A stretch of DNA of 64,000 nucleotides. Source: Zopfochytrium polystomum (taxonomy: Eukaryota > Chytridiomycota > Chytridiomycetes > Chytridiales > Chytridiaceae). The stretch lies in assembly GCA_025765615.1 (NCBI GenBank), contig JAIVFJ010000218.1:39842-103841 (forward strand), in the 5' to 3' direction. Made by a program: the position numbers and the translations under genes. The notes below the pieces were generated by a model. That model did not search any database. It saw only the letters and a list, made by a program, of their open reading frames with translations, and had not been told where the DNA came from. Each line of letters opens with the position of its first letter. Position 1 is the stretch's first letter. Below, one piece after another: positions 11,149 through 57,194 of the stretch.

Positions 11149-14100
11149 ATGCCAGCCTCTCGCCGTTGGGCGGCCCTGGCGCGATCGTCCATCGCCGCCG
11201 CCCTGGCCACGCGGGCCCGCGTTGCCGCCACGATCGCCTTCATCGTCACGTCGATCGTGCTGACCGTCGTCTACCGCTCCCAGCCACAACCCTTCCTCGC
11301 TCTCGCACAGTTTGCTGCCGCCCTCCCCGTCTACTTCCACGTCCTCCTCCTCATCAACCTCGGCCTCTGGTGCTGGGCCTCCAATGTGCACGGCCTACTC
11401 TTGGCCGGCGTCGACGTCAACGGCGTCCTCCTAACCCAGCACGGCGGGCACAACGGCGATCGCCACCACGGCCTGCACGATTTCGGTCTGCAGCCACCGT
11501 CCAGTGCACGCCAGCGCCGCCGGAGCTCGGCCGGCGAAAACAAGATTGAGATCAATCTCGCGACGGCGACGTCGTCACGGTCGGCTTCGCCTTACTCGTC
11601 GTCCGGCCCTTTCGCTCTCGACGGCCCTCCCTCGGGCGACGACGACGACGACGCGGACGACGACGAGAACGTCGACGGCTACGGAGGCGGCTTCCGCCGC
11701 CGCGACCCGCCGCGGTTTAACCCTCCGTTCCTCTACCGCCTCGCCCTGCGCGCGTCGGCCCTCAGCCTTGCCACCTACCTTGTCTTCCGCTACCTGGCCG
11801 TCACCGCCGGCTGGGGCGAGGAACCCGCAGAGATCGTCGTCGCCGCCGCCTACGCCGCCGCCCTCCTCTGGCTCGCATGGCCCTTCGCTGTCCGCTGCTT
11901 CGCTAGGAGGTCCCGCCGCGCGCGCAGGCGCGGGTACGCCGCCGTCGTCGTCGCCGCTCCACCGCTTCCGTCCGCGCTCGCCCTGTTCTCCGGCGCGTCG
12001 TCCTCCTCCTTGGTGTCGTCGTCGAAGCTCGCGACGCCCTCCGCGGCCTCCTGCGTCCCTTGCACCCCGCCCCCGCCGGCGACGGCGACAGGTTCCTCGG
12101 ACGCCTCCCCCGCCGCCGCGTCCCTCGACGCACGCCTCTGGCTCGGCGCCGCCGCCTTCCGCGTTGCCTGCGAGGGTATCGACGCCCGCGTCCCCTTTTG
12201 CGACGTCGTCCTCGCAGATGTCCTCACCTCATTTTCCCGCGTCCTCGGCGACCTCCACCTCGCCGTCGCAGACCTGCTCCAGGTCGAGCCGGCCGACGCC
12301 GGCGGTAGACCGTCGCCGGACGGCGCCGGGTCGTGGTCGTGGCTCACTCGGCTGATGCAGGTCATCGGTCCCGTGCTCGTCGCGTGAGAGCCTATTTTTC
12401 TCCTATTTCCCCTCCAATGCCGCAAGCTTCGCTAAGAAAACCTTCCCCAACCCTAACTTTTCAACGGGATTTATTTGCTCCAACCCCCCCCCGAGGGAGA
12501 GGGTGAGGAATCTGCAACTTTGAAAGTTAAAAAGTGCATACATATGAAATAGGAGAGACATGTCCAGAGGCAAGAAAGAGGTGCCAGGTAGAGAATCAAA
12601 AGGCAGAAAAACAAAGGACAGCAACTAGGTCAACAAGAAAAAGAGGAGAGGATCCACAGAGGTGAGGTGAAATTTAACAACAAGAAAACAAATAGAAAAC
12701 AAATGAGGTTCGAAGGACTGCACCTGAAACACTGCACAAACTGTCACCCAGTTCCAGCCTCCTCCTCTGAATCAGAGTCCACATGCCCATTGCCGTCCAC
12801 TGTCCCCTCAACCCCCTCCGTTTCCTTCTTCTTCCACTTCTCCCTTGACTCCCGCCACTGTTTGTTCCGTACTGGATCGTAGGTGGTGATGATGACCGAC
12901 CTTGCAAGCTTGCGCACCCTGGCTGCTGCCATCCGTTCCTGAATACTCATATCCTGTCGGTCCACACGACCTGCCTCCACCACAACCTCTGCCTCCTCTG
13001 CTGCTGTTGTCTCTGAAGCATCAGTGAAATTCGCAAGTCCTCCACACTCAACGCGCATCTGCATGATCATTCTGGCCAACTTCATTCCCATCTTCTTGGA
13101 GGCAATGCGAGTCTCCTTAGAGATCTTGTCCTCAGCTTTGGCACTGTAGGGGGCCCAAAAGACCAGCGACCTTAGGCCCAAATCCACTGCTGAAATGTTC
13201 AAATCCTGTTGCTCTGCAGTGGGAATCAACTCAGGATGCAGCCTCTCCAGCCTGTCCTTAACACCTGAACACTCCAAAACATGCCTCCTAGTGCACTTCT
13301 CTGCACAGCCAGCCCTTGCACACTGTTGGTGAAATGCTACCATCCCAGCCATCCACATCAGCAGGTGTCTGAGCCACTTCCTGTTGAATGCCGCACCAGA
13401 TCGAATAACTTGGCATGGCCCCATGTGTGAAGGCACCTCCAAAGCCTGAGCCACCCCTGTGGGGGAGGATTTCTTCTGGCACCTCACCAGGGCCCTCTTG
13501 TGCATGGCCAGCATGTCTGCAGCCTCAATGTTCTTTGTTCTCATCACAGGCAACTCAATGTCATAGGCCTTGGTTGTGGGGAGCACAAGTGGCAACTCCA
13601 CAAAGGAGGGCCGCCTCACCGAGTTCAAGAAATCCTGAATATCCGTATAGTCAAGCGAAAACTTTGTCAAGGACTGTCCCACAGAGGCCCCTGAAGCAAT
13701 CTTTTCCACCATGTGCCTGTACATCTGAGCCGTTGTGTTGCGAGCATCCTGAATGTGGTGCAGTCTGAAAAAGTATCTGGCATTCAGCATCTTGTTCCTG
13801 GCTGCCACAGGGACCACTCCAAACATCAGATGCAGGGCCGCCCCTGAGGAGGTCTTCCCCAGTGACAACGCCTGCCGCAGGCACTTGTCCTGCAACTTCT
13901 GTGCATCCTTCAGCTGTGTGTGAGTCAGGGGGCGCAGTGCAAACCCATACTCCATCATTGGTCTCAAGAAACACATGTAAACCCTGTAAGAGCTCACGGG
14001 CCTGAAGCCCCAGCCATTGAAACCCCGAGCAGCCAAAAAGGCCAGCATCTTTTCTGTTTTCCTCAGTCTCATGGCCAGCGATGCCTCAAAGTCAATACCC

Positions 14101-17100
14101 CTGCAGGTGCGCACAAGACCCAACTGGGTAGTAGACTCCTCCTGGGGAATCTCCACTCCATTCATCTTCAACTTCAAATTCTTCTTGGCTGAAACTGCAA
14201 CACACTTCTTGGCAGCAAATGTCATCCCCCGCTTAAGGGACCACTCATGCACCTTGTCTAGCATTCTCTGAAGTACCGTCGCATCCTTGGCAAAAACTGA
14301 GGAGTCGTCTGCAAAGAGCAGCGAGTTGAGCGAGGTTGCATTAAATGTCAGCATGTGGTCCCTGAAAGACATGGCCAATGTCTGAGGCAAGGAGTTGATG
14401 GCAACATTGAACAGCATGGGTGACAGGACTGTGCCTTGGAGAAATCCTCTTGTCACTTGGATCTGAGCAGACTTGTTCCCAAGTACCAGCAGCTGGCATG
14501 CATTGAAATCAAACAAAGATCTGAGGATCGGCAGCAGTTGAGTCCTTGTAAAGTCACGACTCTTGTCATTCCTGGCAAACCAGAGGGAGTCCCACACCAG
14601 ACTCCTGTTTGTGCAGTCATACGCAGCCTTAATGTCCAAATACACCACATGCATCTGGGGGTTGAGCTGCTGAAGCTCATGCAAAGTGTAAGCCTGGTCC
14701 ATGGTGGAACGCTTTCTTCTGAAACCTCCCTGCGCCCTATGGATCATGCCTTCAACCACGCGCTCAACCTGGGGTGCAATCACTCGTTCAAACACCAGTC
14801 GCATCCTTGAGCACAAGGAGATGGGTCTGTAGTTTGCAACATCGCTGTTGAGCCCCTTGTTCTTGTAGACCAAGGCCACATTGGCCACAGACCACAGAGA
14901 AGGAACCACATGAAGAGAGGCCACAAGCTGAAAGAATCTGTGCAGGACTGCAGCAACCAAGTGCGGAGCAATTGAGACCAACTCCCCAAAAAGCATGTCT
15001 TCTCCAGGGGCTTTGCCCCTGGGGGCATTCTTGCAGGCTTCTTCAACATGAACCTTCTTAATCCAGGAGACTTCAGACTGCTTCAGAGGGACTTTGTTCA
15101 CAGTAACCGCTGATTCTTCCAGAGCCACGGCGTCAGGGACATCAGTTCCAGTTGGATCATGCCCTATGGTTGTGCGGAAATGATCTTCGTAATGGCCCAT
15201 CTTCTGGGGGTCAAGGGCACACTGGCTCCTATCTGAACGAGCCTTCTGACACTTGATGCGCTTAGCCTCACCAGCAAAGTCACGCACAGCAGAGTCCTGG
15301 ACAGCTGAATATACACGCTTCCTGTACCGCTTGATGGCAATCTTCACGATCTTATTCCACTGACGAAACTGAGTCCAGGCCATCTTCTGCCCCACAGGAT
15401 CATCCTCTGGGTGAGCCTCAGCAGCCCTTCGCGCCTCCACTCGACGGTGCTTTAGCTCCTCCAGATGCTTCTCCCGGACCTCTGGTCCTCCAGATCCACC
15501 CCTAAAGCGAACTTTCCCAGCCACCTTAACAGCATTGTCCATGAGCCACTGCATGACCAAGTCTGAAACAGCATCCACACAAGCCAAGCGCCTCTCATAA
15601 GTCCAGAGCTCTCCGGCCTCAGCGGCAGCTTCAACTTCTTTCCAAACTGAATGAATCTGGGCTCTGATGGGTTTCCTGGTCTTCTCAAGGCAGCTAGCAT
15701 ACTTGGTCTGTCTCATCATGAGCCGACGAACATTCAGGCGCTCAAACGGGGGCTTGGTGGTCAGATCCCCATTGAAGGTGAAGGTCAACAGCCTGTGGTC
15801 TGAGAATCCAACATACTCTGAAGGGTCATCATGGACAACTAGGTTCTGAACAAAGGGGAGAGCATGCTGGTTGACAAACAGAAGATCAGTGACCCCCCGT
15901 CCACCAGGTCCACCGGCCCGTCCCTCTGTCATTGTGGTCCACTGGCCACGAACCGGCGCTACCCTCCTCCACTGGGAAGGGGGTCGCAGCCAGTCCTGCA
16001 GCCAGCAAACGCGTTCAGCAGGAGCAGAGGTGCGGCATCCATATTCACGCATCCAAATGTTGAAGTCTCCAATGATCAGAAAGGGTGCTGCAGGCATAAG
16101 AGTGCTAACTTGACTAACTCCATCTTGAAATTCCTGCAGAGATTCCAGAGGTGCGCTTGGCGCAAAATACGTCAATCCAACAATCAGCTCCGACATCTTC
16201 ACAATGATCCATTCTCCCTTGGGGGACCTGTGCAGGGTCTGCACCACCAGGTGGGCATCACTTTCCAGGTCCCCACTCACCACAACAGCCACTCCTTTCT
16301 TTGCCCTTGTTCCAACATTCCGCCCAGGTTGATAAGGAGGGGGCACCCCCCTTGCCTCAGCAACAACACCCCGAACTGCACTCATACTGTCAGAACTCCA
16401 CATTCCAATATCTGAAAACAACATATAGTCTACTTGAAAATCTGAAAAAATTCCTTGAACTTGATCTGAATGTCCAGCTAAGGATCCATGGGCATTCAAA
16501 AATCCAAATCTCAATGACTTGCTCATGTTTCCATGGCATTGGCATCGCCTGCACGCACAGCAGTGGGTTCAGTCTCAGTTTCCCTCCCCTTCCCCTTCCC
16601 ACCAGAAGGCGCAGATGGGTACAGAGAGAGATCCTTCAACTTCCCCCTCAAGAGTGTCTCCAATTTCTTTGGCACAGATGCATAGATAGACTTGGCAACA
16701 TTTGGTGGTGGTCTGAAGAATGGATGGTTCAGGATCCCAGCAACCCGGCGGATATACGCCTGCACAGCTGCTTCCCTAGCTTCAGGAGAATCCTTCAACT
16801 TCGAGGGCATCCAGGGCTCACAATCAGTGTCCACAGCAATCTCAGCATCAGCACAAGCCTTGATGAACTTCTCCTTGTCCCCCTCATACACCCAGCATTC
16901 CATCAGAGCAGCATATTGGCCAATGACTGAAATTTCTGGTACTCTAGGGAAGCCCTTCTCAGGTCTGAACACAAGTCTCATGCTGTGGCGGGGGTTAGCC
17001 CGACCCACATCTGAAAGGTTAGGGCGGATGTACACTGGAACAAACTTAGCCTCGGGCAGCGACGACTCAGGCCGGACGTAGCCCGGCGCTGAGCGCCGAG

Positions 17101-19551
17101 CTGCGACGGCTGAGGGACGCGGTCTCAAAACCTGAGCAATCTTGTCTTCAACAGAGGCATTGGGGTCGGCAGCAACAAAGATGCCTTTCACAAACGGGCT
17201 GGGATGAATGGGCTTAGGACCATTGAGCGCAACAGTTGCAGCGAAACTTAGCGGGTGCACATTCTGCTTGGTCCTCGGGAGACTCGGCCAACCTCCACCA
17301 GGTGTCGATGGGCGCTCTGAGACACGGGAGGCAGGGCGACCACTCCTGCGTCGTGGGCGCTCTCCCTCCGTCGCCTCGGGATCCCAGTCATCATCGTCAA
17401 CACGGGCCGAAGGCCTCCGTCGATCAGTGCCACCAGTACCGCTTCCACCTCCTTTTACATCACCATCACCATCAGCAGCACGTCGCATCTGAAGCAGCAA
17501 AATTTCAGCCTCCAGCTCGTGAATTCGCTCGTCCTTCTCCTTAATTGTTGCGTTCAAACGGTCGATATGTCCTTTGAGGCGGTCAATCTCCGCCACACTA
17601 TAGTCATGCTTGTCGCTATGCAGTTTAAGAAGCGCGTTTGTGCGGTCCATGAAAGCGGAAACTTCTTCCATTGTTGGGGGAGGGCGTCGGGGCGGAGGGT
17701 CAGGAAACATGGCCTGAGAGAACGTCAGCTGGGATCCGGAGGGGGAAGGCTGCATCGTCGGAGTGGAACTCAGGGGCGGGGAGTGGCGGGGGGGAGGGCT
17801 TAGCGATGGAGATCGAGACGGTGATCTGGGAGATGTGTCTGCGTCGCTCGACGCCGTTCGTCCTCGTTTGGGGTCGACGGAGCTGGCGGATGGGGGTGTA
17901 CGGTGCTTTCGATCGGAGAGGTTTGCGCGGACGGGGGTGGTCGAAGGTCCAGATGATGAGGCGATAGTGGAGTTGGCAAGGATCGCCGCGGCTGTAGCAG
18001 CAGAATGGACACGGCGAATCGCTGTGTCGAGGTCGTCGAGATCGCGTTTGCAGATGTGAGCGAGTACTGTATGAAACCGACGCGAAACAGGGGGGCGACA
18101 GCGATTGCACGAGATCGAAAGTCGTTGGATGCCAGAGATCGAGTTCGCGTTGCCAGCGATCCCTTTGGAGGTGAACGGGTGGCTGCAACGTGGGCAGAGT
18201 AGCTGTTTTTTGTGGAAGCGGTAGAGGGCCTTCTCGAGGTCGTGGAACTCGTCCGCTGTGCTGACGAGGAATCGCGATCGCGGGAATTCACGATCTGCTG
18301 GTGCAGGCGCAGATGCAGGTGCTACGATTGCGGAGGATGGCGACGATTGCGGCTGGGCTTGGGCAAAAGTGAGTTTGGTTTGTTTCTTAGCGGGCTGCAA
18401 CACACCGAGGGTGTCTTCAACCGCGACTTTGAGCTTCCCACGACGCCTTCGACTTTGCCGTCTGACAAAGACGAGATTGTGAAGAAAGAAAAAGTCCCCC
18501 AACCCTAACCCAAACAACAACGTCCCCGCCCGAAAAAAAACCAGCCTGCCCTTCCTCTTCCGCCTGCGCCAGTGCATCGCCGAGTACCGCCACGCCCCCG
18601 TCCCCTCCGCGAAGCGACGGCACTTTTGGAACGCGCTCAAGTACGCGTCGAGCTTCCCCGTCATTGCGACCTCGCTGCTGGTAAACTGGGCCCGCAGCAG
18701 CATCGCCGCCGCCGCCGCCGCTGCCTCTTCCACCACCACTGGCGATGCCGTCGCGGGCGGCGGCGGCTTGGCCGCGGCGGCTGCGGTCGCTTTTTTCGCG
18801 TGGTTTGTGCCCTTTTTGACCGCTTTTCGTTGTAACCCAACTCAACTTCTTACCCAAAAAAAAAAAAAAAAAAAATACATTTAGGGTCCTCGCTTCGCTC
18901 GTCAACACCTGCTTCGCACTATACTGGGACATCGCCGTCGACTGGCAGCTCGCCGTCCACATCGACCTGTCTCGCCCACCCACCCACTGGGTCTCTGGCG
19001 CACCAGCCCCCGGTGCAACACCGGCGCCCGCACCCACATCACAAACGCCCTCCGCCTCCTCTTTTTCCTCAACCACCGCCACCGTCACCCCGCCTACCCC
19101 CTCCTCCTCCTCCTCCGACCCCACCACCACCACCGCTAGCGCCCCAACACCACCACCACCACACCCACAACCCCCACCGCCACCCCCAGCCCGCCCCCTG
19201 CACTTCCGCCCGCGCGCCCTCTACCCCGCCGCAGTCCTCCTCAACACCCTCCTCCGCGCCGCCTGGCTCGTCCGCGCCGCCCTCGTCTGGCGCATCCTCG
19301 CCTCCGCCGCCGCCGCCGCGACCGCCTCGGGCACGCGGCAGCCGCCGTTCGACTCGGCGCTGCTGGTCGCGGTCGATCTGGCGTTGAAGGCGCTCGAGGT
19401 CGTCAGGAGGTGGGTGTGGGTGTTTTTTAGGGTCGAGAGGGAGTGGGTGGGTGGGGCCGTGGCCGCCGCCCAGGCGGCTGGGGCGGCGGCGGCGGACGGT
19501 GGCGGAGGTGGGGCGGCGATAGTTGTGGGTGGAGGTGGGGCTGCGGCGTGA
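11149..19551 (+). CDS. EXS-domain (ERD1-like) membrane protein carrying a LINE in intron 1
   Basis: Exons 11149-12383, 18545-18802 and 18885-19551 join in phase (2 then 2) to 719 residues. EXS hallmarks span the junctions: VPFCDVVLADVLTSFSRVLGDL (exon 1); LPFLFRLRQCIAEYRHA and FWNALKYASSFPVI (exon 2); LVNTCFALYWDIAVDWQL and VVRRWVWVFFRVERE (exon 3). There is no SPX domain; the protein starts almost directly with a membrane helix, as in yeast Erd1, a Golgi protein linked to phosphate recycling and glycosyltransferase retention, rather than Xpr1/Syg1 phosphate exporters. A long Pro/Thr/Ser insert sits inside the EXS domain in exon 3. Intron 1 would be 109 bp without the 6-kb antisense LINE and one copy of its duplication. 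Intron 2 uses an unusual GTTTGT donor and has a poly-A run before its acceptor. Whether the LINE-bearing intron is spliced is unknown. Confidence 0.87.
12445..12457 (+). repeat. LINE target-site duplication, left copy
   Basis: CCCCAACCCTAAC, identical to 18497-18509. It lies just beyond the LINE's 3' end and contains the CTAAC branch-site motif of the host intron. Confidence 0.88.
12744..16526 (-). CDS. LINE ORF2: AP-type endonuclease and reverse transcriptase
   Basis: An intact 1260-residue frame from the ATG at 16526. Residues ~1-240 form an exonuclease-endonuclease-phosphatase fold: SLRFGFLNAHGSLAGH at the start, FLIIGDFNIWMREYG with the GDFN motif, and VGFSDHRLLTF with the catalytic SDH. 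The reverse transcriptase follows, with NYRPISLCSRM, AQGGFRRKRSTMDQ, VVYLDIKAAYDCTNR, RGFLQGTVLSPMLFN and the FADD active site in LNSLLFADDSSVFAK. Near the C-terminus CARAGCAEKCTRRHVLEC resembles a zinc-binding motif. The protein nicks target DNA and primes cDNA synthesis there. Its ATG overlaps the ORF1 stop in the tetranucleotide ATGA, a coupled-translation arrangement. No disabling change is visible. Confidence 0.95.
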   Translation of the reverse strand: MSKSLRFGFLNAHGSLAGHSDQVQGIFSDFQVDYMLFSDIGMWSSDSMSAVRGVVAEARGVPPPYQPGRNVGTRAKKGVAVVVSGDLESDAHLVVQTLHRSPKGEWIIVKMSELIVGLTYFAPSAPLESLQEFQDGVSQVSTLMPAAPFLIIGDFNIWMREYGCRTSAPAERVCWLQDWLRPPSQWRRVAPVRGQWTTMTEGRAGGPGGRGVTDLLFVNQHALPFVQNLVVHDDPSEYVGFSDHRLLTFTFNGDLTTKPPFERLNVRRLMMRQTKYASCLEKTRKPIRAQIHSVWKEVEAAAEAGELWTYERRLACVDAVSDLVMQWLMDNAVKVAGKVRFRGGSGGPEVREKHLEELKHRRVEARRAAEAHPEDDPVGQKMAWTQFRQWNKIVKIAIKRYRKRVYSAVQDSAVRDFAGEAKRIKCQKARSDRSQCALDPQKMGHYEDHFRTTIGHDPTGTDVPDAVALEESAVTVNKVPLKQSEVSWIKKVHVEEACKNAPRGKAPGEDMLFGELVSIAPHLVAAVLHRFFQLVASLHVVPSLWSVANVALVYKNKGLNSDVANYRPISLCSRMRLVFERVIAPQVERVVEGMIHRAQGGFRRKRSTMDQAYTLHELQQLNPQMHVVYLDIKAAYDCTNRSLVWDSLWFARNDKSRDFTRTQLLPILRSLFDFNACQLLVLGNKSAQIQVTRGFLQGTVLSPMLFNVAINSLPQTLAMSFRDHMLTFNATSLNSLLFADDSSVFAKDATVLQRMLDKVHEWSLKRGMTFAAKKCVAVSAKKNLKLKMNGVEIPQEESTTQLGLVRTCRGIDFEASLAMRLRKTEKMLAFLAARGFNGWGFRPVSSYRVYMCFLRPMMEYGFALRPLTHTQLKDAQKLQDKCLRQALSLGKTSSGAALHLMFGVVPVAARNKMLNARYFFRLHHIQDARNTTAQMYRHMVEKIASGASVGQSLTKFSLDYTDIQDFLNSVRRPSFVELPLVLPTTKAYDIELPVMRTKNIEAADMLAMHKRALVRCQKKSSPTGVAQALEVPSHMGPCQVIRSGAAFNRKWLRHLLMWMAGMVAFHQQCARAGCAEKCTRRHVLECSGVKDRLERLHPELIPTAEQQDLNISAVDLGLRSLVFWAPYSAKAEDKISKETRIASKKMGMKLARMIMQMRVECGGLANFTDASETTAAEEAEVVVEAGRVDRQDMSIQERMAAARVRKLARSVIITTYDPVRNKQWRESREKWKKKETEGVEGTVDGNGHVDSDSEEEAGTG
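16523..18496 (-). CDS. LINE ORF1: zinc-ribbon and coiled-coil nucleic-acid-binding protein
   Basis: The frame is open from the element's 5' boundary to the stop at 16523 (about 657 codons), and stays open into host DNA as far as 18739. Inside the element there is no in-frame ATG until TPTMQPSPSGS, roughly a third of the way in. N-terminal to that ATG is a zinc-ribbon pattern (LLCPRCSHPF and LSISCNRCRPP). Then come a Ser/Pro-rich linker, a coiled coil (YSVAEIDRLKGHIDRLNATI, continuing to ERIHELEAEILLLQ), an Arg-rich segment and a C-terminal globular part (KFVPVYIRPNLSD to FRPPPNVAKSIYASVPKKLE). Such proteins package LINE RNA. Because the zinc ribbon precedes the only ATG, either translation starts at a non-AUG codon, or the 5' end was lost on insertion. 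The second is the simpler explanation. Confidence 0.75.
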   Translation of the reverse strand, partial: DFFFLHNLVFVRRQSRRRRGKLKVAVEDTLGVLQPAKKQTKLTFAQAQPQSSPSSAIVAPASAPAPADREFPRSRFLVSTADEFHDLEKALYRFHKKQLLCPRCSHPFTSKGIAGNANSISGIQRLSISCNRCRPPVSRRFHTVLAHICKRDLDDLDTAIRRVHSAATAAAILANSTIASSSGPSTTPVRANLSDRKHRTPPSASSVDPKRGRTASSDADTSPRSPSRSPSLSPPPRHSPPLSSTPTMQPSPSGSQLTFSQAMFPDPPPRRPPPTMEEVSAFMDRTNALLKLHSDKHDYSVAEIDRLKGHIDRLNATIKEKDERIHELEAEILLLQMRRAADGDGDVKGGGSGTGGTDRRRPSARVDDDDWDPEATEGERPRRRSGRPASRVSERPSTPGGGWPSLPRTKQNVHPLSFAATVALNGPKPIHPSPFVKGIFVAADPNASVEDKIAQVLRPRPSAVAARRSAPGYVRPESSLPEAKFVPVYIRPNLSDVGRANPRHSMRLVFRPEKGFPRVPEISVIGQYAALMECWVYEGDKEKFIKACADAEIAVDTDCEPWMPSKLKDSPEAREAAVQAYIRRVAGILNHPFFRPPPNVAKSIYASVPKKLETLLRGKLKDLSLYPSAPSGGKGKGRETETEPTAVRAGDANAMET
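18497..18509 (+). repeat. LINE target-site duplication, right copy
   Basis: Second copy of CCCCAACCCTAAC, abutting the LINE 5' end. It still lies 35 bp upstream of the exon-2 acceptor at 18543-18544, so the branch site stays in place. Confidence 0.88.
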
Positions 19552-42161: not shown

Positions 42162-42760
42162 CTAAACTATCCGGATAAGTTTCTTGAATTCCGTCATCCG
42201 AGGCCCGTTCACTCCTTTTGTGAGTGGATCAGCCACCATCTGCTGTGGTGCTGATGTGTCGTACTTCCACTTCCTTGTTCGCAACGCGTTCGCGAATGAA
42301 GTGGTACTTAATCTCTATGTGCTTGGATCGCTCGTGTGCCTCGGGGTTTTTCGCGATGGCAATCGCGCTTGTGTTGTCACAATATATCACTGTTGGCCCC
42401 TGCTGTGGGAGCCCAAACCGTCCGAGCAATCCGCGAAGCCAAACTGCTTCCTGCACTGCGAAGTACAATGCCATGTACTCCGCTTCCATTGTTGATGTTG
42501 CGATGGTTGGTTGAAGCTTTGATTTCCAACTGATCACCGACCCACCGAGCGTAAAAATGTAGCCCGTGGTTGACCGTCGCGAGTCTGCGTCAGACCCCCA
42601 ATCGGAGTCTGAGTACCCAATGAGTCCGAGGTTAGAGTCCTGGGGGTAAAAGATGCCAGGACTCTGCTGTGGTGGCGACATACTGTGCCACTCGTTCTGC
42701 CGCGATGAGGTGATGGCTGTCGAGGTTCCGACATGAATCGCGAAAGAACGCCGACAGAGA
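42162..42760 (-). pseudogene. Copia RNase H region, out of frame with the main pol frame
   Basis: The RNase H motifs (GYSDSDWGSDADSRRSTTGY, STMEAEYMAL, IYCDNTSAIAIAKNP and SKHIEIKYHFIRE) are intact but lie in different frames from the upstream polymerase. The frame changes once near 42740, again near 42650 (before FYPQDS) and again near 42240 (before ADPLTKGV). In the main frame the sequence between RFMSEPRQ and the stop at 42534 is nonsense. Either the copy is defective despite its youth, or these are base-call indels. Confidence 0.8.
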
Positions 42761-45700
42761 AAGATAAATCTGGCCTTGTCATGGTCGCAAGCCAATTTAT
42801 CGATCCTACCAAATGTCGGTAGAACTCGCCATCTGCTGGGGTGTTGAGGTCTGGCTGAATCGACACCGCCCGCGGTGTCGAGTTCCGATCCATGGGGGTG
42901 GCCAACCGCCGCACGCGCTGGATCTCACTTCCCAATGAGATAGCTTTGCCAGGCTGGGACAATCGAGTCCCTCCTGGTAATCGATCGCGATGGAGTCCCA
43001 CAAAACTGGCCGGGTCGTCGTCCTTCCGTCCCTTAAACTTTGCTAACAGCTCGTCAGCTGCTGCGTGGACATCCGATCGCCGATCTCCCCCAAACATTAT
43101 ATCATCAACATGTACGAGACTAACTAATAGCCTCCGATCCTCAGGTGGGCCAATCTCACGCGTAAACATGCATCGATCGTGATCGGTCCGAATCCACCCA
43201 AGTGTTTCCATTGCTTCACCGAACGTATCATACCAGGTTCGGCCGGCCTGCTTGAGGCCGTAAATTGCCCGTTGCAGCCAACAGACAAGATCGTGGCTGC
43301 CAACTTCGAGACCCTCTGGGATCTCGAGATACATCTCAACATCCACCTTGCCATTCAGGAATGCCGTTGAGATGTCGACAGAGACAAGGAACCATGATCG
43401 AGCCGTTGCGATTGCAAAGAAAATCCGCGTTGTTGTCTGTCGTACTACCGGAGAAAATGTTTCTCCGTAATCTCCTTGTCTTTGTGCATATCCCCGTGCC
43501 ACCAACCGAGCCTTGTACCGTGTGATCTGTCCAGCTGAGTCCTTCTTGAGATCGAATACCCACTTTGCCGTGAGGGTCTTTTTATCCTTGGGTCGCTTCT
43601 TCAGGATCCACACACCGTTTGTTTTCATGGACTCGAGTTCTGAAGCAATCGCCTTTTTCCATTCCTCTGCATCAGGCCGGGAGAGTGCCTCCTTGTAAGA
43701 TCGGGGTGGCACCTGCAGTTCAATCGGCACAGAGATGAAAGCCTTGCCCGATCGGGTAGATCGCTGTTCACTGATGACGTTGTCCTGGTGGACTTCAGAA
43801 TGGTAAGGTCCAAACTGTGATTGGTGTCGCGGTTGATCTTCTTGTGGCTCGTCGTCACCAGAAAAAGGTTCTGGTGTGTGTGCTTCCAGCTCCGAGGAGG
43901 ACGGCAGTACTGGTAGAGCACGTGGGGCCGCAGGATCTGTATCTGATTCATTATCAGAATCGAAGGGGTCCGAATCGATCAATGTGGGCATATTGTGCGT
44001 TCCTTCCTCAAAGGGGAAGGAATCTTCAAAGAATCTTGCACTCCTTACTCTCCTTATCACATTATCGCCGAGGTGAAGAACCCGGTAAATCTGGCCGGCG
44101 TCGCCTTCATAGCCGATCAAGATACCGCGCCATGCGCGCGGACCGAAGACACTTTTTCTGTCTTCCTTTTCAATATGGGCATAAACCTCGCATCCGTATG
44201 CCCGGAGATTGGCCAAATTGGGTTTCCTTCCATATAATACCTCGTAAGGAGTTTTGCTGTCTGCTCGCGGAATTCGGTTGTGCAGGAAAGCTGCCGTCCG
44301 CATGGCCTCTCCCCACCATTGGATCGGTAGATTTGCACCAAGCAGCAGAGAGCGTGTTTTGTCTTTCAATGTCCTGACGGCGCGTTCTGCATGACCGTTT
44401 GAATCTGGATTTCTTGGCACTGTGCGCTCGTGTCGGATACCCAATGCGGTCAATTGCTGCAGGAATTCGTTCGAGATAAATTCTCCTCCCCCATCCGAGC
44501 GAATTGCCAAGACTTTCTTGTTTGTCTCCCTTTCCATTTTGGTGATGAAAAGGAGAACTTCTGTGGCCGCATTACTTTTTAGTCTTATTGGGATGGCTGC
44601 CAATGCTGATCCAGGTTCAATGCTAACAACCAGTGCATATTTGTCTCCAGTGGTTGTCGGTGGGAGCGGGCCAGCCAGATCGACATGTAAAATCATTTTT
44701 CCATCAGGGACAACCCTGTTCGTCTCCGGATGTGGTTGTCGTGTCGACTTAGATTGTGCGCAGACACGACATTCTGTCTCTTCTTCTGTGTCGATCTGTG
44801 GAACACCAGTGACGCCCTTCTTCATCTGAACAGAAAGCTGGGAAGGGGCACCTGGGTGTCCAAGCCGCCTGTGTAGCACCGCCGAAGAAACTGTTGCAAG
44901 TGCCACCGACTTCCCCGACAAAGTAATTGGGTAAACGTATGGTAGGTCTGCATCCTCATGCACTGGAATCGTGTATCTGCACCATGGAAAAACGATCCTC
45001 GTAGTTTGTCCAAATGTCACTACTGCGCCTTCATTCGTTAACTGCTGTACTGAAAGAAGGTTGTAGTGAAAGGTCGGGATGTGTAAAGCTATGGTCTTAA
45101 TGAGCCGTTTCCTGTGTGCCTGTCGTCCTAGGGGCGGCTCTGCCCAGAAGTAGATCATGCCCATCCCGATTGCCTGGTGCGAGGATCCATCGGCAAGGGA
45201 GACACTGGGCCGATTTGCTGTCAACGGAAAATACTCCTTTGGGAAGCATGCCCGTTCACGTACGTAATGGCATGTGGCGCCGGAGTCCAGTATCATTGTA
45301 TAATCCTGTGTCATTTTCCCATTTGTCTCCCGGGACATTAATGCCAAGTGTGCCGCACCGTTTCCAAATTTGTCCAAAAATTTGTCTGTTTCCTGACTGT
45401 TGTCCCGTCCCTTCTGTTTCCTGCTGCTGCCCCTGTAGCGCCCATTCCCGTCCCGTCGTCCTCGATTGCTATTGTGGGGGTTGTTCCGCCGTGCCGATCG
45501 ACATTCCACAGATTTATGGCCCTGCTTCCCGCAATTGAAACAGTTGCCAGTGAAGCGCGAGGATGTCGCCATCAATGCCGAACTTGAGGACGATGGCGTC
45601 GGCATGATAGTTTTCCCTAGATCAGCGGCTCCCACATACGCTGGAGACTCTCGGGCCGCTGCTTCCAACATTTGCCGCTTCACAAATTCAACTGTGAGTG

Positions 45701-46520
45701 GCGCAGTGACGAGATCGCGATTTATCGTCATAGTGTCGCGAAAACTGCGCCATACTGGATCGTCAATCGGGACTGAATTTAGGTAGAATCCCACTTGCAA
45801 AGCCGCTTCAAACTTCATGCCTGCAGCTTCCAGCTGATCAAATGCCAGGGAAAGTCTTTGGATGTGAGTGTGCATATTTGTTCCGGGCTTGTAAATCGTG
45901 GTAAAAAGTCGTCGTTGGATCTCATACGCTGTTGCTGCCGTCGTAGCTGATCCGCATGCCGCAAACAGGTCTGGATGGATCTTGTCCAAGATATATGATG
46001 CCGCCTGGCTGTCCAATTTTCGTTCGTCATCTGTCATTACTACGCCTCGATCCGTTGTGACGTAGTCTTTGAGGCCCTTCGAGGCAAGAAGAAACAGCAT
46101 CCTTGTTTTCCACTGTCGGAAGTTTGCACCACCAAAAACAGGAAAGTTCTTGAATTCATCAGAAGATGTGGAGATGTTGACAATCGGTCCTGATCGTACA
46201 GGGGAAGGTGCCCTTGACATGTCAGTTGGTGGTGGAGTTGCTGTTGGTGGGGCAGAGGATGATCGAGGAGTTGGTCGGGGTCGAGGGGGGATGGGAGGAG
46301 GTTCTCGTCGTCGAGGAGGTACTTCTGGGGTAGGGGATCGGGATCGTGGGGATCTTGTATATGATGCGGTACCCGAGAACGGAGATGACGGTCTTGATGG
46401 CCTTGGGGCTGAAGCCGGTCGTGGACGATGTAGTCTTGCAAAGTTAAGGGGGTTGGCGAAGTCAAGGCCTTCTTGTACGTCAAAGAATTCGTCGTCGTCA
46501 CCCTGGGAGCCTGGGTTCAT
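42534..46520 (-). CDS. Copia gag-pol polyprotein (truncated by frameshift at RNase H)
   Basis: A frame of 1328 codons from the ATG at 46520, only a few bases from the 5' LTR. Order: Pro/Ser-rich N-terminus; gag core around residues 115-290 (FPVFGGANFRQWKTRMLFLL); zinc knuckle CFNCGKQGHKSVEC at about 326-339; aspartic protease ILDSGATCHYV at about 409; integrase zinc HHCC from about 550 (LHRRLGHPG then CRVCAQSKS) and catalytic DDE region (LHVDLAGPLPPT, AIRSDGGGEF, PRNPDSNGHAERAVRTLK). Reverse transcriptase has FLVSVDISTAFLNGK and, in place of YVDD, LVHVDDIMFGG. It ends LATMTRPDLSFSVGVLSRFM before the frame is lost at RNase H. Gag and pol are fused without a frameshift, as in many copia elements. 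Confidence 0.95.
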   Translation of the reverse strand: MNPGSQGDDDEFFDVQEGLDFANPLNFARLHRPRPASAPRPSRPSSPFSGTASYTRSPRSRSPTPEVPPRRREPPPIPPRPRPTPRSSSAPPTATPPPTDMSRAPSPVRSGPIVNISTSSDEFKNFPVFGGANFRQWKTRMLFLLASKGLKDYVTTDRGVVMTDDERKLDSQAASYILDKIHPDLFAACGSATTAATAYEIQRRLFTTIYKPGTNMHTHIQRLSLAFDQLEAAGMKFEAALQVGFYLNSVPIDDPVWRSFRDTMTINRDLVTAPLTVEFVKRQMLEAAARESPAYVGAADLGKTIMPTPSSSSSALMATSSRFTGNCFNCGKQGHKSVECRSARRNNPHNSNRGRRDGNGRYRGSSRKQKGRDNSQETDKFLDKFGNGAAHLALMSRETNGKMTQDYTMILDSGATCHYVRERACFPKEYFPLTANRPSVSLADGSSHQAIGMGMIYFWAEPPLGRQAHRKRLIKTIALHIPTFHYNLLSVQQLTNEGAVVTFGQTTRIVFPWCRYTIPVHEDADLPYVYPITLSGKSVALATVSSAVLHRRLGHPGAPSQLSVQMKKGVTGVPQIDTEEETECRVCAQSKSTRQPHPETNRVVPDGKMILHVDLAGPLPPTTTGDKYALVVSIEPGSALAAIPIRLKSNAATEVLLFITKMERETNKKVLAIRSDGGGEFISNEFLQQLTALGIRHERTVPRNPDSNGHAERAVRTLKDKTRSLLLGANLPIQWWGEAMRTAAFLHNRIPRADSKTPYEVLYGRKPNLANLRAYGCEVYAHIEKEDRKSVFGPRAWRGILIGYEGDAGQIYRVLHLGDNVIRRVRSARFFEDSFPFEEGTHNMPTLIDSDPFDSDNESDTDPAAPRALPVLPSSSELEAHTPEPFSGDDEPQEDQPRHQSQFGPYHSEVHQDNVISEQRSTRSGKAFISVPIELQVPPRSYKEALSRPDAEEWKKAIASELESMKTNGVWILKKRPKDKKTLTAKWVFDLKKDSAGQITRYKARLVARGYAQRQGDYGETFSPVVRQTTTRIFFAIATARSWFLVSVDISTAFLNGKVDVEMYLEIPEGLEVGSHDLVCWLQRAIYGLKQAGRTWYDTFGEAMETLGWIRTDHDRCMFTREIGPPEDRRLLVSLVHVDDIMFGGDRRSDVHAAADELLAKFKGRKDDDPASFVGLHRDRLPGGTRLSQPGKAISLGSEIQRVRRLATPMDRNSTPRAVSIQPDLNTPADGEFYRHLVGSINWLATMTRPDLSFSVGVLSRFMSEPRQPSPHRGRTSGTVCRHHSRVLASFTPRTLTSDSLGTQTPIGGLTQTRDGQPRATFLRSVGR

Positions 46521-46524
46521 AACC
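46510..46524 (-). other. Copia primer-binding site, overlapping the gag start codon
   Basis: GGTTATGAACCCAGG on the minus strand, one to three bases from the 5' LTR. It resembles the complement of the initiator tRNA-Met anticodon arm (CTCATAACC) and the copia-type site GGTTATGGGCCC, implying priming by a tRNA fragment rather than a tRNA 3' end. The ATG inside it (46520-46518), complementary to the CAU anticodon, is the gag-pol start. Confidence 0.6.
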
Positions 46525-47305: not shown

Positions 47306-50300
47306 TTAAGTTGGGTTTGAGCGAAGTGCGTCTGCCAGCGGTAAAAGCCCTTCGCTCCACTCCTCTCCCTCCGTGCCTGAAATGAGCTGATTCAAGAACC
47401 CTTCCCACTTGTCCCAGTCCGAATCATTGACACCCGCGTTGGCGTCGTTTACTGCTGTCCGCTCTGCCTCACTTGGATTAGGCTCCAGACTGATAAATGA
47501 ACCGTCACCCGTCGACATTGGCGCTCTTTGCTCCTCCAGAACGTCTTGGCTACTTGCGCGATCGGTGTTCGAGTCAATCACGACCGACGGGGGGACTGAA
47601 CCCAGCAACGACCTGGCGAGCTGAAGGATCCCAACAATGATAAACTCGACGCTCACTTCCGACGTCCTCTTCCAGTTGTGCGCAGCCTCCTCCACCAGCG
47701 TGGTTCGCTCCGCAACCGCCACATCCGCGCCTTCCTCCGCTTCCCACCGATCCTCCTCCTCCTCCCCGTCCCCGTCCTCAAACACCGCCCAGCGATCAAA
47801 CTCCCGCAGCTGCCCGCACATCTCGCCGTACGACGGCCGCCATCGCCGCTCCGCCCGAAACATCACCACCATCTCCCCAAACATCCGCGCAGCCTCCGCC
47901 CGCCGCGCGCCAAGCACCGCCTCGCTCGGCCCCACCAACGCCGCCGCCGCGGCCCTGGCCCTCACCGGCCCCGCACCGTCCTCCGCCGACCCAAGCACCG
48001 CCGCGGCGAACGCCAGAAAAGTCGCCGCAGAAAACACTTGCAACACCCCCCACACCGGCATCCCGTCCCCGGCCTCTCCGCCGCCCTCGCCACGCCGCCC
48101 CCGCCGCACCCTCGCCGCCTCATCCGCAATCGCCCCCGCCGCCGCCATCCCCGCCGCAAACGCCCGTCGCACCGCAACCCCGTCCCCAACCCCAACCGCC
48201 TCCCCGCCGCAAACCACCCGCGGCAACACCCGAGTCAGCGTCCGCACCGCAAGAAACACCCCGGCCCCGTGGTCCAGGCATAACGACGCCCTCCGCCACG
48301 CCTCGGGCACCCGCCCGGCCGCGTCCGGATCGAACCGCCACCCCCACACCGCCCGCCACCCCGCGACTCGGCTCAAACCCTCCGCCTCCCCCGCCGCGCC
48401 GTCCCCGCCGCCGCCGCGCGCGAGCACGTGCAGGTTGACGTCCAGCGCATCAAAGAACGCGTGCACGTGCCACCCGGCGTCCTCGTCGGCGTCGATGGAG
48501 GAGCAGGAGGACGACGGGGAGACGTTGTCGAAGGAGGAGGACTCCCACTCGGCGTCGGTGCGGATGGGTCGCACGTGGGTCGCGCCGACGGGGAGGTTGG
48601 AGGGGCGCGTGTCGTTGATGGAGATGTCTGTTGGAAACGAGTGGAGAGAGGGGAAGGTGGGGGGGGGCCGGGATTATAAATCGTGGGGTAAGAATGGAGG
48701 GCGGTACGCACATCGCTCGGTGAGGTACGTCAGGAACCAGCAGCGCCGGCGCGTCTCCTTTTCGATGGCGGTGAAGGGGCCGGGAAGGTCATCGGGGTCG
48801 ACGTCGACTTTGAGGAGGACGACCTGTGTTTTTTTTTTTTCGGTTTTTGTTTTTGGTATCAGGCGCGAGGAGGCCACGTGAAAAGGTGCTGGAGTTAGAG
48901 CTACATTCACGATCAAACCCTGCGCTCACCATTCTGCACGCGATTCCGGACAGCAGTCGGCCGACCGCGAACTTTCCGACGCCTGTAAGTACGGTTTGAT
49001 TGTGTTGAAGATGATTGAGTTAATAATGGAGATCGAGTGGCGAGAAGACATGAAAAAGGTGCAAAGGGAGTGCTTCACTCAACGAAACGATGCTTCCGAC
49101 AGGATGATCACCGCCTGCAAGTTCTCGATCGAAGGCGTGTCGCTCGACTGCATCGTTTGCGACCGCGCAAACTCGTAGTAGTGCTGAAAGACTTGCTTCG
49201 GCAGCGCCCGCAGTGTCGCTTCGGTTGCGCCCATCGCGCAGATCGCCGCGCTAAGTGTGTGGTAGGATGCGTAAGGGGTGTTTTCCTTTTTTTTCTTCTG
49301 CACTCCCACTGCTCTCCCTCTCACCCGCGTCTGCTCCATCTCTTCCCACCACCAACCACCCCTCAAAGAACTCACCGCAAAAACGCCGGCACCCTGACCC
49401 TGTCCTTCAAATACGACGCGCGGTGCACGACCCGTATAAAAACCGACCTCGAGCGGAAGTAGGCGTCCGCCAGGTCGTCCTCCTCCGCGGCGGCGTCGTC
49501 GGCGCCCGGCCGCGGCGGCAGCCGCATAGACGCCCGCCCGGCCTCGCCGCGCTCGAGTTCCGCGTCGTAGCACGTCCGATAGAGGTTCGACTGCAGGCTT
49601 GCTTGCATCAGCATGGTCGTGAGGGTCGCGGGTGTTACTTGCCATGTGGGCTCTGCGGCGTCTAGAGCGGAGAAGGGGTCGGGACGATGTGGTCAGTGGC
49701 GCGACAATCGCGATCGTGTAACGAGCGTGGGCACGCGCGCTCTCTAACACCCGCACCTCAAACCCACCCCCGCCTCACCAATCTTCTCCTGCTCGACCCT
49801 CCTCCTCTCCCGCTCCTCGGCAGCCAAGTTCGCCCTCTGCGCCGTCCCTGCCGCCGCCGCCGGCTTGAACACGACGCGGCCGCCCGGCCCGCCGCCGAGG
49901 AACACGCACAGGTGCGGGTGCCCAATCTTGACGCACCGCCCGCAGTGCGGCCGCACCGCGTCGCACCGGCGCTTGCTGTAGCGGCACGGTTCGCAGGACC
50001 TGGTGTGTGGGGCGGGGGTGGGTGGGGTGAGGGGTTGAAGCAAAGATGGAAGGAGAAGTGCGGGGTGGGTGTACCATCTTCGTGCGCCGACTTTGAGTAG
50101 CGATGATGGCGGAATCGGGGCTGGTGGTGGCAGCGGCTGGGACGAGACGGGCGGCGACGGCCAGGTGGACGGAGGAGGGTTCGGTGGGAGTGGCGCCGTG
50201 GTCGCGGTGGGGGTGGGGACGTCGGTTGTGAGCGTGGGTGGGGGTGCGGTGTTCAACGTCGCTGGCGCCGAAGCTGGAGGATTGGATACGGCTGTTGTTG

Positions 50301-55656: not shown

Positions 55657-55670
55657 CCCCTAACCCTTAA
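55657..55670 (+). repeat. 14-bp direct repeat flanking the hairpin-rich insertion, left
   Basis: CCCCTAACCCTTAA, identical to 57181-57194. Probable target-site duplication at an intron branch site. Confidence 0.7.
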
Positions 55671-57180
55671 CTCCTCAAGAAATTTATTATCTACTACAAC
55701 TGTTTTGGTGATCGAATCCACCCTCACCGGCCCAATGATGAAGTGGAAACAACAGTTAGAGACCTGCATCTAGGCCCGAATACGCCGAGTGCGGGCGTGA
55801 GGGAAAAAAGGGCGAACCTTGAAAAAACCCACACTAACACCCAACGAAGAACAACCACCAACGGAAACTATGAGGCCCGGCCCCCCCCCCAAAAAAAGGG
55901 GGGGGGTGGGAATGCGTAAGGCCCCCCCGCTAGGAGGGGGGGCGAGTCGAAGAAAGAGAAGCATAAGTCGAAGGGTAATGCAAAATTCGAAGAAAAAAGC
56001 AGGGATCGAAGAAGAAGCAAAAAGATCGAAGAGAAAGCAAAGACCTAACGCCCTATCCGAAGCGAAGAGGGGGGCCAAATCGAACAGGCAAAAGCGTAAC
56101 TCGAAAAATGAGCACCGCACGAAGGAAAAGCAAAGGAACGAAGAGGATGCGAAAATCGATGAAAAAGCCAAAGCCAAAAACTAAAAGCAGAAGGAAAACC
56201 AACCGAAGGCGAGGAGTGGCGCCGCAAGGCGCCGCCTGCAACCGAAAAACCGAGGGGCGGAGCACCAGGAACCGCCCCATCCATCCGGAGTGGGTGACGC
56301 CAGAGGCGCCGACCTGACCGAAACGCGAAGGGTGACGCCCCGAGGCGCCTTCCCAACCGAGGGGGCGGCGCCCCGACCCGACGGGTGGCGCCCCGCGAGG
56401 CGCCGCCCAGAACCGAGGGGTGGCGCCCCGTGGCGCCGCCCTAATCCGAAGGGTTGCGCCCTGCGAGGCGCCCCAATTCCAAAGGATGGCGCCTCAAGGC
56501 GCCGCACAGCCGAAGGGCGGCGCCGCCAGGCGCCGCCCCAATCCGATGAGTGGCGCCGCCAGGCGCCGCCAAAATGCTAAATCGAAGAAGACCGTGACAA
56601 GGCAGGAAGGATCGGGAGGGGGGACTCAACCCCCTCTCGATCGTACCCGCGAAGTACGAGATCCGTGCGTAAAGCGGGGGGTAGCGGACTACCCCGCGCA
56701 GATCGAAGGGGAAGGGGAAGGGCGCCCAAGCGCCCGTGCGACGGGGGCAAGGGAGGAACGTCGCACTACACCCAAACCAGCAACACACGGCTTGCCCACC
56801 CTCTCACCTTCGCATCCCGGTACTCTATTTCCCGGGCCGAGCGGGGGGGAACGCGTCCCATGCGGGAGGTCTGGGGTGAGCTGCGGGGCGTCGGGCTCGC
56901 CGGCCCGACGGCGTCGCACCGAGGGGGGGATCGTGGGTCCGACGATCATAGAGCGTCCTGCTACTGCTAATTTCGCAGGCCAGCCAGGGGGATCGCATCC
57001 CACGCTTACGACTCGTCCTTCCCAGCGCTGCGATCGCTCGCAGCGCTGCGGATCCCGCTGCACGCCGGCAAGCGAGATCCACACCACCCGCCGCCGCCAT
57101 CGAAGGCGGCTGCGTCGGCGGCGGCGGCGGCCCTCGCGACGCCGCCAATCGCCACCCCCGAAAATTGCAAAGTTTTTCCT
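55671..57180 (-). mobile_element. Candidate SINE-like non-autonomous element, 1.5 kb
   Basis: Flanked by a perfect 14-bp repeat. Removing the segment and one repeat restores an intron of about 80 bp with a CTAAC branch site and ACAG acceptor in front of the exon-6 relic. Read on the minus strand the 3' end is AATAAATTTCTTGAGGAG, resembling the LINE end AATAAATCCCGTTGAAAAG. The body (about 56575-56215) is an array of GGCGCC hairpins, then a TCGAAG/purine-periodic tract (about 56200-55940). The 5' half (57180-56600) has several short stem-loops, some tRNA-like. There is no coding frame of note. A transferred mitochondrial fragment with hairpin elements is the main alternative. Confidence 0.5.
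56215..56575 (-). repeat. Tandem GGCGCC hairpin array
   Basis: Roughly nine to ten units of 30-45 bp. Each carries one or two GGCGCC/GGCGCC-type palindromes (for example GTGGCGCCCCGCGAGGCGCC) joined by short CCGAAGGG or CCAATCCGA linkers. Units vary in sequence but conserve the ability to fold, unlike a simple satellite. Confidence 0.85.
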
Positions 57181-57194
57181 CCCCTAACCCTTAA
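57181..57194 (+). repeat. 14-bp direct repeat flanking the hairpin-rich insertion, right
   Basis: Second copy of CCCCTAACCCTTAA, nine bases before the acceptor of the exon-6 relic. Confidence 0.7.

Follow-up and report, generated by a model that had tools for sequence, protein, structure and literature searches.

Classical SINEs are shorter than roughly 700 bp, and the hominid composite retroposon SVA is a long, non-coding, LINE-dependent element whose 5′ domain and 3′ module are separated by a GC-rich VNTR; it uses L1 in a poly(A)-dependent manner and occupies dispersed sites. Among telomere LINEs, SART1Bm is of the APE type, and TRAS1 is a comparable element. SART1Bm is described as a silkworm telomere LINE with a TTAGG target, a 3′ UTR that is recognised in trans by the LINE protein and a poly(A) tail that is needed for accurate use (PMC7265360). 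In Magnaporthe oryzae, MoTeR2 is described as the non-autonomous partner of MoTeR1, composed of 860 + 786 + 77 bp and having the 5′ 860 bp and the 3′ 77 bp in common with it (PMC7367193). FoTeR, MoTeR and SLACS/CRE elements are described as having a restriction-like endonuclease domain in common. For Chlamydomonas, SINEX-3_CR is paired with L1-1_CR as a tRNA-derived SINE with a stringent LINE-derived tail, and its LINE-type 3′ end is considered to be recognised by the LINE reverse transcriptase (PMC3747384). An exact-phrase literature search for telomeric or telomere-specific SINEs returned no description, and other wordings for such elements may exist.

The locus described here lies in a 64,000-nucleotide stretch of DNA (the window; C218:39842-103841) from the 80.16-Mb, 761-contig assembly of the chytrid Zopfochytrium polystomum (Chytridiales). 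A GH18 frame in the window has 100% identity to a protein of this species along 98% of its length. An earlier note on this DNA had pointed to a non-coding segment bracketed by a perfect 14-bp repeat. The bracket is real: CCCCTAACCCTTAA is found at both 55657-55670 and 57181-57194, with identity over 14 bases, and constitutes a target-site duplication. The element between the repeats reads on the minus strand from 57180 to 55671, where its end AATAAATTTCTTGAGGAG abuts TTAAGGGTTAGGGG, and it belongs to a multicopy, mobile family.

55657..55670, minus strand: target-site duplication, 3′ copy, from comparison of the 5′ and 3′ targets
55671..57180, minus strand: retroposon proper, type H3-T3, 1510 nt, with the same boundaries in the full H3 copies read
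57181..57194, minus strand: target-site duplication, 5′ copy, TTAAGGGTTAGGGG in minus sense, 14/14 identical; the same in the duplicate locus L009

The description as non-coding was upheld: two open frames within the segment, of 283 aa (plus strand) and 164 aa (minus strand), matched no Pfam family. A coding element was rejected on this result and on the lack of ORF2 matches in elements with the T3 tail. The same note had placed the segment in a former intron and proposed that its excision restores a short one, which is plausible but unproven. CACAG, just downstream of the insertion, aligns with the intron/exon junction of a paralogous stretch (window 48723-48832), but the other side of the intron does not align with that stretch. 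A proper empty site was sought and not found; a duplicate on C3 (97%) carries the insert as well, and a search for the empty site returned three short matches to paralogous sequence (query 1-111 or 14-111), of which the one compared was a paralogous exon. The target at 55657-55670 sits near the 3′ end of the relic intron and contains CTAAC, which we take to be a fungal branch-site motif; CTAAC in the target may offer telomere-repeat LINEs a route into introns. Elsewhere in the window, a 455-aa frame (47306-48673) had no protein match at E≤1e-20, and a Copia-type polyprotein (42534-46523, minus strand) has gag, integrase-core and RVT_2 matches.

The dispersed copies predicted for the segment were found. 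Used as a query against the assembly, the segment matched at least 92 stretches (40 of the 68 candidates scored). The last 21 nt of the element occur exactly 51 times and the last 27 nt 50 times, and a reversed control of the 3′ end has no occurrence in the assembly. A single-copy NUMT, the outcome that the earlier note had set against its own proposal, recommends itself through the GGCGCC hairpins, which recall those of chytrid mitochondria (GC-rich hairpins occur in some of them). Like any other organellar or host sequence present once, it was rejected on copy number and on the target duplications of the copies, and has next to no probability.

Full H3-T3 copies are 1284-1823 nt long. Read in minus sense, they open on a TTAGGGTTAGG-like target, after which come a G-rich, variable segment and a version of GGAAAAACTTTGCAATTT; they end in GATAATAAATTTCTTGAGGAG followed by another target, so that the insertion sites are TTAGGGTTAGG-like sequences. 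TTAGGG is the telomere unit. The forward strand of the assembly has 217 occurrences of five consecutive units, among them the extreme ends of contigs C15 and C20; the reverse strand has no such run, which is odd for a contig set.

We parsed 50 T3/T3b elements, 46 of which have a recognised 5′ target (the remaining four are the first element of L016 and those of L027, L048 and L049). The 5′ and 3′ targets are identical over at least 10 nt in 44 of the 46, a count that includes non-independent copies (the window and L009, L018 and L025, three on C44, and array neighbours) and in which agreement between standard targets is partly by construction, because the parser sets the 5′ boundary at whichever target-like string comes first upstream. 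For this reason the variant targets are the telling cases. Fourteen of the 16 non-standard 5′ targets are duplicated with their variants, and the other two agree over 8. Duplicated variants include TTAAGGG in the window, ATAGGG in L014, TTAGTGG in L026, TTAGGATTAGG in L022 and L038, and TTAGGGTTAGC in L032. Variants duplicated on both sides are predicted by target-primed reverse transcription and not by simple telomere tracts.

These data also bear on the idea that the family multiplied without retroposition, through recombination, segmental duplication or the healing of telomeres at the ends of chromosomes, with the flanking repeats being internal telomere tracts. Arrays would fit such a process, as would the clear duplicates that have the same flanks (the window and C3, and three copies on C44). 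So would the position of T3 tails, 18 of 26 of which lie within 20 kb of a contig end against 4.4 expected under uniformity (contigs of at least 100 kb, whose ends are biased to repeats). The variant targets duplicated on both sides nevertheless make this origin very improbable, as do 5′-truncated copies that have duplications and the constant 3′ end (L022, L040 and L051) and the presence of identical elements at sites whose flanks differ. One such pair, L010 and L013, shows no difference in any gap-free aligned column and occupies different genomic places; therefore the family, and its enzyme, have been active recently. In several copies a two-unit target is bordered by unique sequence on one side or on both. 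In a separate observation, H4-T3 elements occur three times in G000:C44:318500-361500, at intervals of 16 and 21 kb. All three have the same flanks, and a tRNA-like SINE head follows each; this triplet is apparently a large tandem duplication.

The window contains a LINE that is a candidate mobiliser of the element.

12445..12456, minus strand: LINE T1 target duplication, 3′ copy, TTAGGGTTGGGG, 12 bp
12457..18496, minus strand: LINE T1, candidate mobiliser, with an ORF1 frame from 16523 to the 5′ end and ORF2 at 12744-16568 (1274 aa)
18497..18508, minus strand: LINE T1 target duplication, 5′ copy, 12 bp

LINE T1 ends in AATAAATCCCGTTGAAAAG and abuts TTAGGGTTGGGG in the same orientation as the element, and the earlier statement that both are joined to a like target was correct (TTAAGGGTTAGGGG vs. 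TTAGGGTTGGGG). Its ORF2 is uninterrupted and has Pfam matches to Exo_endo_phos (E 1.7e-5) and RVT_1 (E 3.6e-25), which together with its target gives T1 the reverse transcriptase, endonuclease and telomere-repeat target of a telomere-repeat-specific LINE. A second LINE, T2 (L028), has a 1271-aa ORF2 that is 61% identical to that of T1. T1 and T2 are the only telomere-repeat LINEs among the loci read; a single pattern that combines their tails occurs 159 times, and their ends lack poly(A). Both use the target of the element in the same register and form head-to-tail arrays with it. In the loci read, the tail is followed by TTAGGG or ATAGGG in 23/23 T1 and 21/21 T2 cases, and by TTAGGG, TTAGGA, TTAAGG, ATAGGG or TTAGTG in 49/49 T3 cases. 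At L037 (minus) 2080-2115, a LINE T1 insertion of ~24 nt lies between two TTAGGGTTAGGG targets. LINE ORF2 matches were obtained in 8/19 T1/T1w and 9/20 T2 elements and in none of the 50 parsed T3/T3b elements; 49 of the 51 exact T3 tails were read upstream, and the remaining two are near contig ends.

Two nested segments at the 3′ end of the element are relevant to its relationship with these LINEs.

55671..55694, minus strand: proposed 3′ address label of ~24 nt, ending in GATAATAAATTTCTTGAGGAG in minus sense; last 21 nt found 51 times exactly, label swapped in L054; putative role
55671..56037, minus strand: T3 module, ~367 nt, the most conserved part of the element, also present on tRNA-like SINE heads (H5-headed elements)

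In most copies, wherever it is complete, the T3 module is ~89-96% identical to the window copy. The earlier note had regarded the 3′ end as LINE-like from its last bases, and letter similarity by itself is modest. The score of an unanchored alignment of the T3 tail was reached by 68 of 2000 shuffles for T2 and 272 of 2000 for T1, which is not significant. In 3′-anchored alignments with LINE tails it was reached by 1 to 36 of 1000 shuffles in five comparisons, and by 2 to 45 of 1000 in four comparisons with AATAA kept (all uncorrected). No shuffle reached the score of the anchored T1 and T2 tails. An AATAAA-like signal may have arisen twice independently. The likeness is weak and confined to the last ~24-60 nt; the 367-nt module is otherwise unmatched, with no BLAST match to the whole of LINE T1 or to the last 243 nt of T2.

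Stronger support for a LINE-compatible end comes from the common target and register and from L054, in which the T3 module continues up to ...AAAACAGTTGTAG and is then replaced by GAGCGAATAAATCCCGTTGAAAAG, the end of LINE T1; this is the part of the claim that stands. In L039 (414-1874), an H3 head is followed by the last 63 nt of LINE T1, and in L012 (3456-5039) T3 is reduced to its last ~23 nt, for which a later internal deletion is an alternative cause. From these short or swapped ends, including that of L037, we infer an interchangeable address label in the last ~24 nt.

The unmatched module might instead come from another telomere-repeat LINE, a third one, extinct or missing from the assembly, whose own tail was a true T3; the H3 5′ domain would then be left over from the 5′ untranslated region of that LINE. 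The T3 module finds no match in either LINE T1 or the end of T2, its letter likeness to both is modest, and it is far more uniform than the rest of the element; a LINE of this kind could lie outside the assembly, two of the 51 tails being unread upstream. We consider it unlikely, though a serious competitor: no ORF2 match was found in the 50 parsed elements even though 49 of the 51 exact tails were read upstream, identical copies at different sites require a recently active enzyme, and L054 and L039 carry T1 ends. On the basis of its boundaries, copies, duplications and register, the lack of a reverse transcriptase match, tail exchange and the covariation described below, the element is very probably a non-LTR retroposon that is long, non-coding and non-autonomous and whose RNA the telomere-repeat APE LINEs T1 and/or T2 copy in trans.

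Upstream of the T3 module, the body of the element contains a repeat array and a duplicated RNA domain.

56207..56580, minus strand: GGCGCC hairpin array, a 33-bp tandem repeat whose length varies between copies; fold of 56200-56580, z -3.39
56581..56663, minus strand: segment shared by the H3 and H4 types, 90% identical between them
56807..56869, minus strand: RNA domain R1, second copy, 62.2 bits, E 2.4e-11
56948..57011, minus strand: RNA domain R1, first copy, 80.8 bits, E 1.6e-15, with the near-identical L009 copy within the alignment of the model

The GGCGCC hairpin body reported earlier is a 33-bp tandem repeat of 6.4 copies (56364-56575). Structure prediction gave the listed z for this region, and for the 5′ 455 nt of the element a fold more stable than those of 100 shuffles (z -4.63). 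For 56581-56663, RNAalifold returned no consensus pairs (14 sequences). More distant copies retain 66-90% identity to the window copy in their 5′ domain.

Nearly all H3 copies contain two 64-nt R1 stretches with one common fold, consisting of an outer stem, a hairpin GGGAnGCGnUCCC and a second hairpin with a GAAA...AGUA loop; the second R1 of L019 (3741-5267) is degenerate (24.6 bits). Across 35 sequences, standard pairs occupy 94.2% of 554 pair cells, and 10 of the 16 pairs show changes on both sides, in a structure drawn from the sequences used to test it. None of 500 shuffles reached the observed pairing, double-change cells or covariation score, and 4 reached the number of double-change pairs; 390 reached the number of further pair types, so that this count gives no support. 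Slid controls were 40-50% paired, and RNAalifold by itself recovered most of the structure, with double changes in 10 of its 16 pairs.

The R1 covariance model gave 73 matches at E≤1 from 39 sources in the loci searched. By eye, these matches are confined to H3/H4-type elements, with none in LINE bodies or tRNA-like heads. Against Rfam, R1 had no match at gathering and unrelated weak matches at E 0.4-8.9. The exact R1 pattern occurs in 47 places, 5 of them outside the loci then collected. A host gene as the source of R1 was rejected on the three outside places read (C11, C19 and C321), which lie in more diverged copies; C695:185 and 327 are unread. Shortly past the second R1, many copies have a splice-donor-like GGTAAG or GGTGAG (e.g. 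L012:3834-3845 and L020:3253-3264).

A tRNA-like 5′ half was claimed but not confirmed. ARAGORN called no tRNA in the window, Rfam at gathering had no match in the element, and none of the 19 hits that Rfam gave for the element at E≤10 is to a tRNA, 7SL or 5S family; a tRNA head was therefore rejected. Nor did the scan for a Pol III promoter, which covered the B box, lend support: the element has a single B-box-like hit with one mismatch (56910-56920), and the window has 19 such hits against 23.3 expected. The consensus of the T3 module also has conserved T6 runs, which are expected to stop Pol III; the conservation figures obtained with this consensus come from 30 sequences picked as H3 by pattern, one of which (L034_T1_1560_1053) is a wrong pick.

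The SINE architecture proposed for the segment therefore holds in part. The element is dispersed, non-coding, non-autonomous and LINE-dependent, and is flanked by target duplications of the kind left by LINE-type target-primed reverse transcription (44/46), but no tRNA, 7SL or 5S head with a Pol III promoter was found, and at 1284-1823 nt it is outside the usual SINE size. A classical tRNA-derived SINE would be in keeping with two siblings that combine the same T3 tail with tRNA-like heads called by ARAGORN. Given the 1.3-1.8 kb length, the T6 runs and the lack of a tRNA or Rfam small-RNA head, we regard this identity as very unlikely for the element.

The siblings show that the tail is a separable module, since SINE heads of 412 to 421 nt are joined to T1 tails, T2 tails and the T3 module, with the 412-nt head common to all three. 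In one sibling with a T2 tail, 243 nt are identical to LINE T2; the 367-nt T3 module of others agrees with the one in H4 elements at up to 100% identity. Among sibling heads with a T3 tail, ARAGORN called tRNAs in L028 (1323) and L041 (2/13 loci scanned), and Rfam at gathering called none in 5 loci, L028 included, which is why we call these heads just tRNA-like. At L032:2855-6047, L028:1323-2101 and L018:4005-4669, SINE-like heads of ~412 nt stop at nearly one point, beyond which lies LINE T1 ORF2 (LINE position ~3259), the LINE T2 3′ end or the T3 module. The junctions look as if the reverse transcriptase had switched templates and carried on from the 3′ terminus of a small RNA. Elements of 255-259 nt (L018:3748-4004, L019 (minus) 3484-3740, L025:3961-4215 and L023:1386-1644) lie between two targets and have a LINE tail at the 3′ end and an inverted-tail-like stretch at the 5′ end.

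Each of the described systems resembles the element in part. By description, it is like SVA in being long, non-coding and LINE-dependent, with a GC-rich repeat between a 5′ domain and a 3′ module, and unlike SVA in that poly(A)-dependent use of L1 and dispersed sites are SVA features. With MoTeR2 (PMC7367193) it has in common its non-autonomy, similar size, TTAGGG surroundings, mixed head-to-tail arrays with an autonomous element and a central part without obvious function. Unlike MoTeR2, it does not have both ends in common with the autonomous element: LINE T1 as a BLAST query gave no match to T3 elements, and the likeness of the 3′ end is weak and limited to ~24-60 nt. Moreover, MoTeRs are described at telomeres, whereas several copies here have unique flanks beside a two-unit target, and LINE T1 has Exo_endo_phos in place of the restriction-like endonuclease described for FoTeR, MoTeR and SLACS/CRE. 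A telomeric-repeat target is common to the element and SART1Bm, of which 3′ UTR recognition in trans is a feature. SART1Bm is an autonomous insect element with poly(A) (PMC7265360), whereas the LINEs here end without it. The combination of a chimeric head with a LINE-type 3′ end recalls the tRNA-derived SINEX-3_CR (PMC3747384); no tRNA head was found in the element, which is 1.3-1.8 kb long and telomere-repeat specific. Although the element behaves like a SINE, we place it outside both SINEs and MoTeR2, the head and length differing from the former and the shared ends of the latter not being found with LINE T1 as query. In our reading it is a composite retroposon that homes to telomere repeats and depends on LINEs, and its length and lack of a tRNA set it apart from classical SINEs.

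We infer a mechanism in which T1 and/or T2 mobilise the element. The ORF2 protein of either LINE would copy the RNA of the element by target-primed reverse transcription at TTAGGGTTAGG-like sites. The enzyme would have to find the last ~24 nt, the address label, at the 3′ end of the RNA. The duplicated R1 domain would most likely serve in capture of the LINE ribonucleoprotein, which is a guess, or in RNA stability. Each insertion would duplicate ~11-14 bp of target and so leave a site for the next element, and such leftover sites could give rise to the head-to-tail arrays of LINEs, tRNA-like-headed SINEs and the element.

We suggest tentatively that the element represents a new class of LINE-dependent retroposon, with a ~1.5-kb structured RNA that has its own duplicated, covarying domain and a ~24-nt interchangeable 3′ address, shared with at least two telomere-repeat LINEs in a one-site parasite community of LINEs, tRNA-like SINEs and structured-RNA elements that swap heads and tails. 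If this is true, a chytrid would harbour a non-autonomous telomere-repeat specialist that keeps almost only a short 3′ label of its LINE partner. The natural tail swaps offer ready-made tests of the minimal 3′ sequence for a stringent LINE reverse transcriptase, and the R1 domain offers a test of what a parasite RNA needs beyond its tail.
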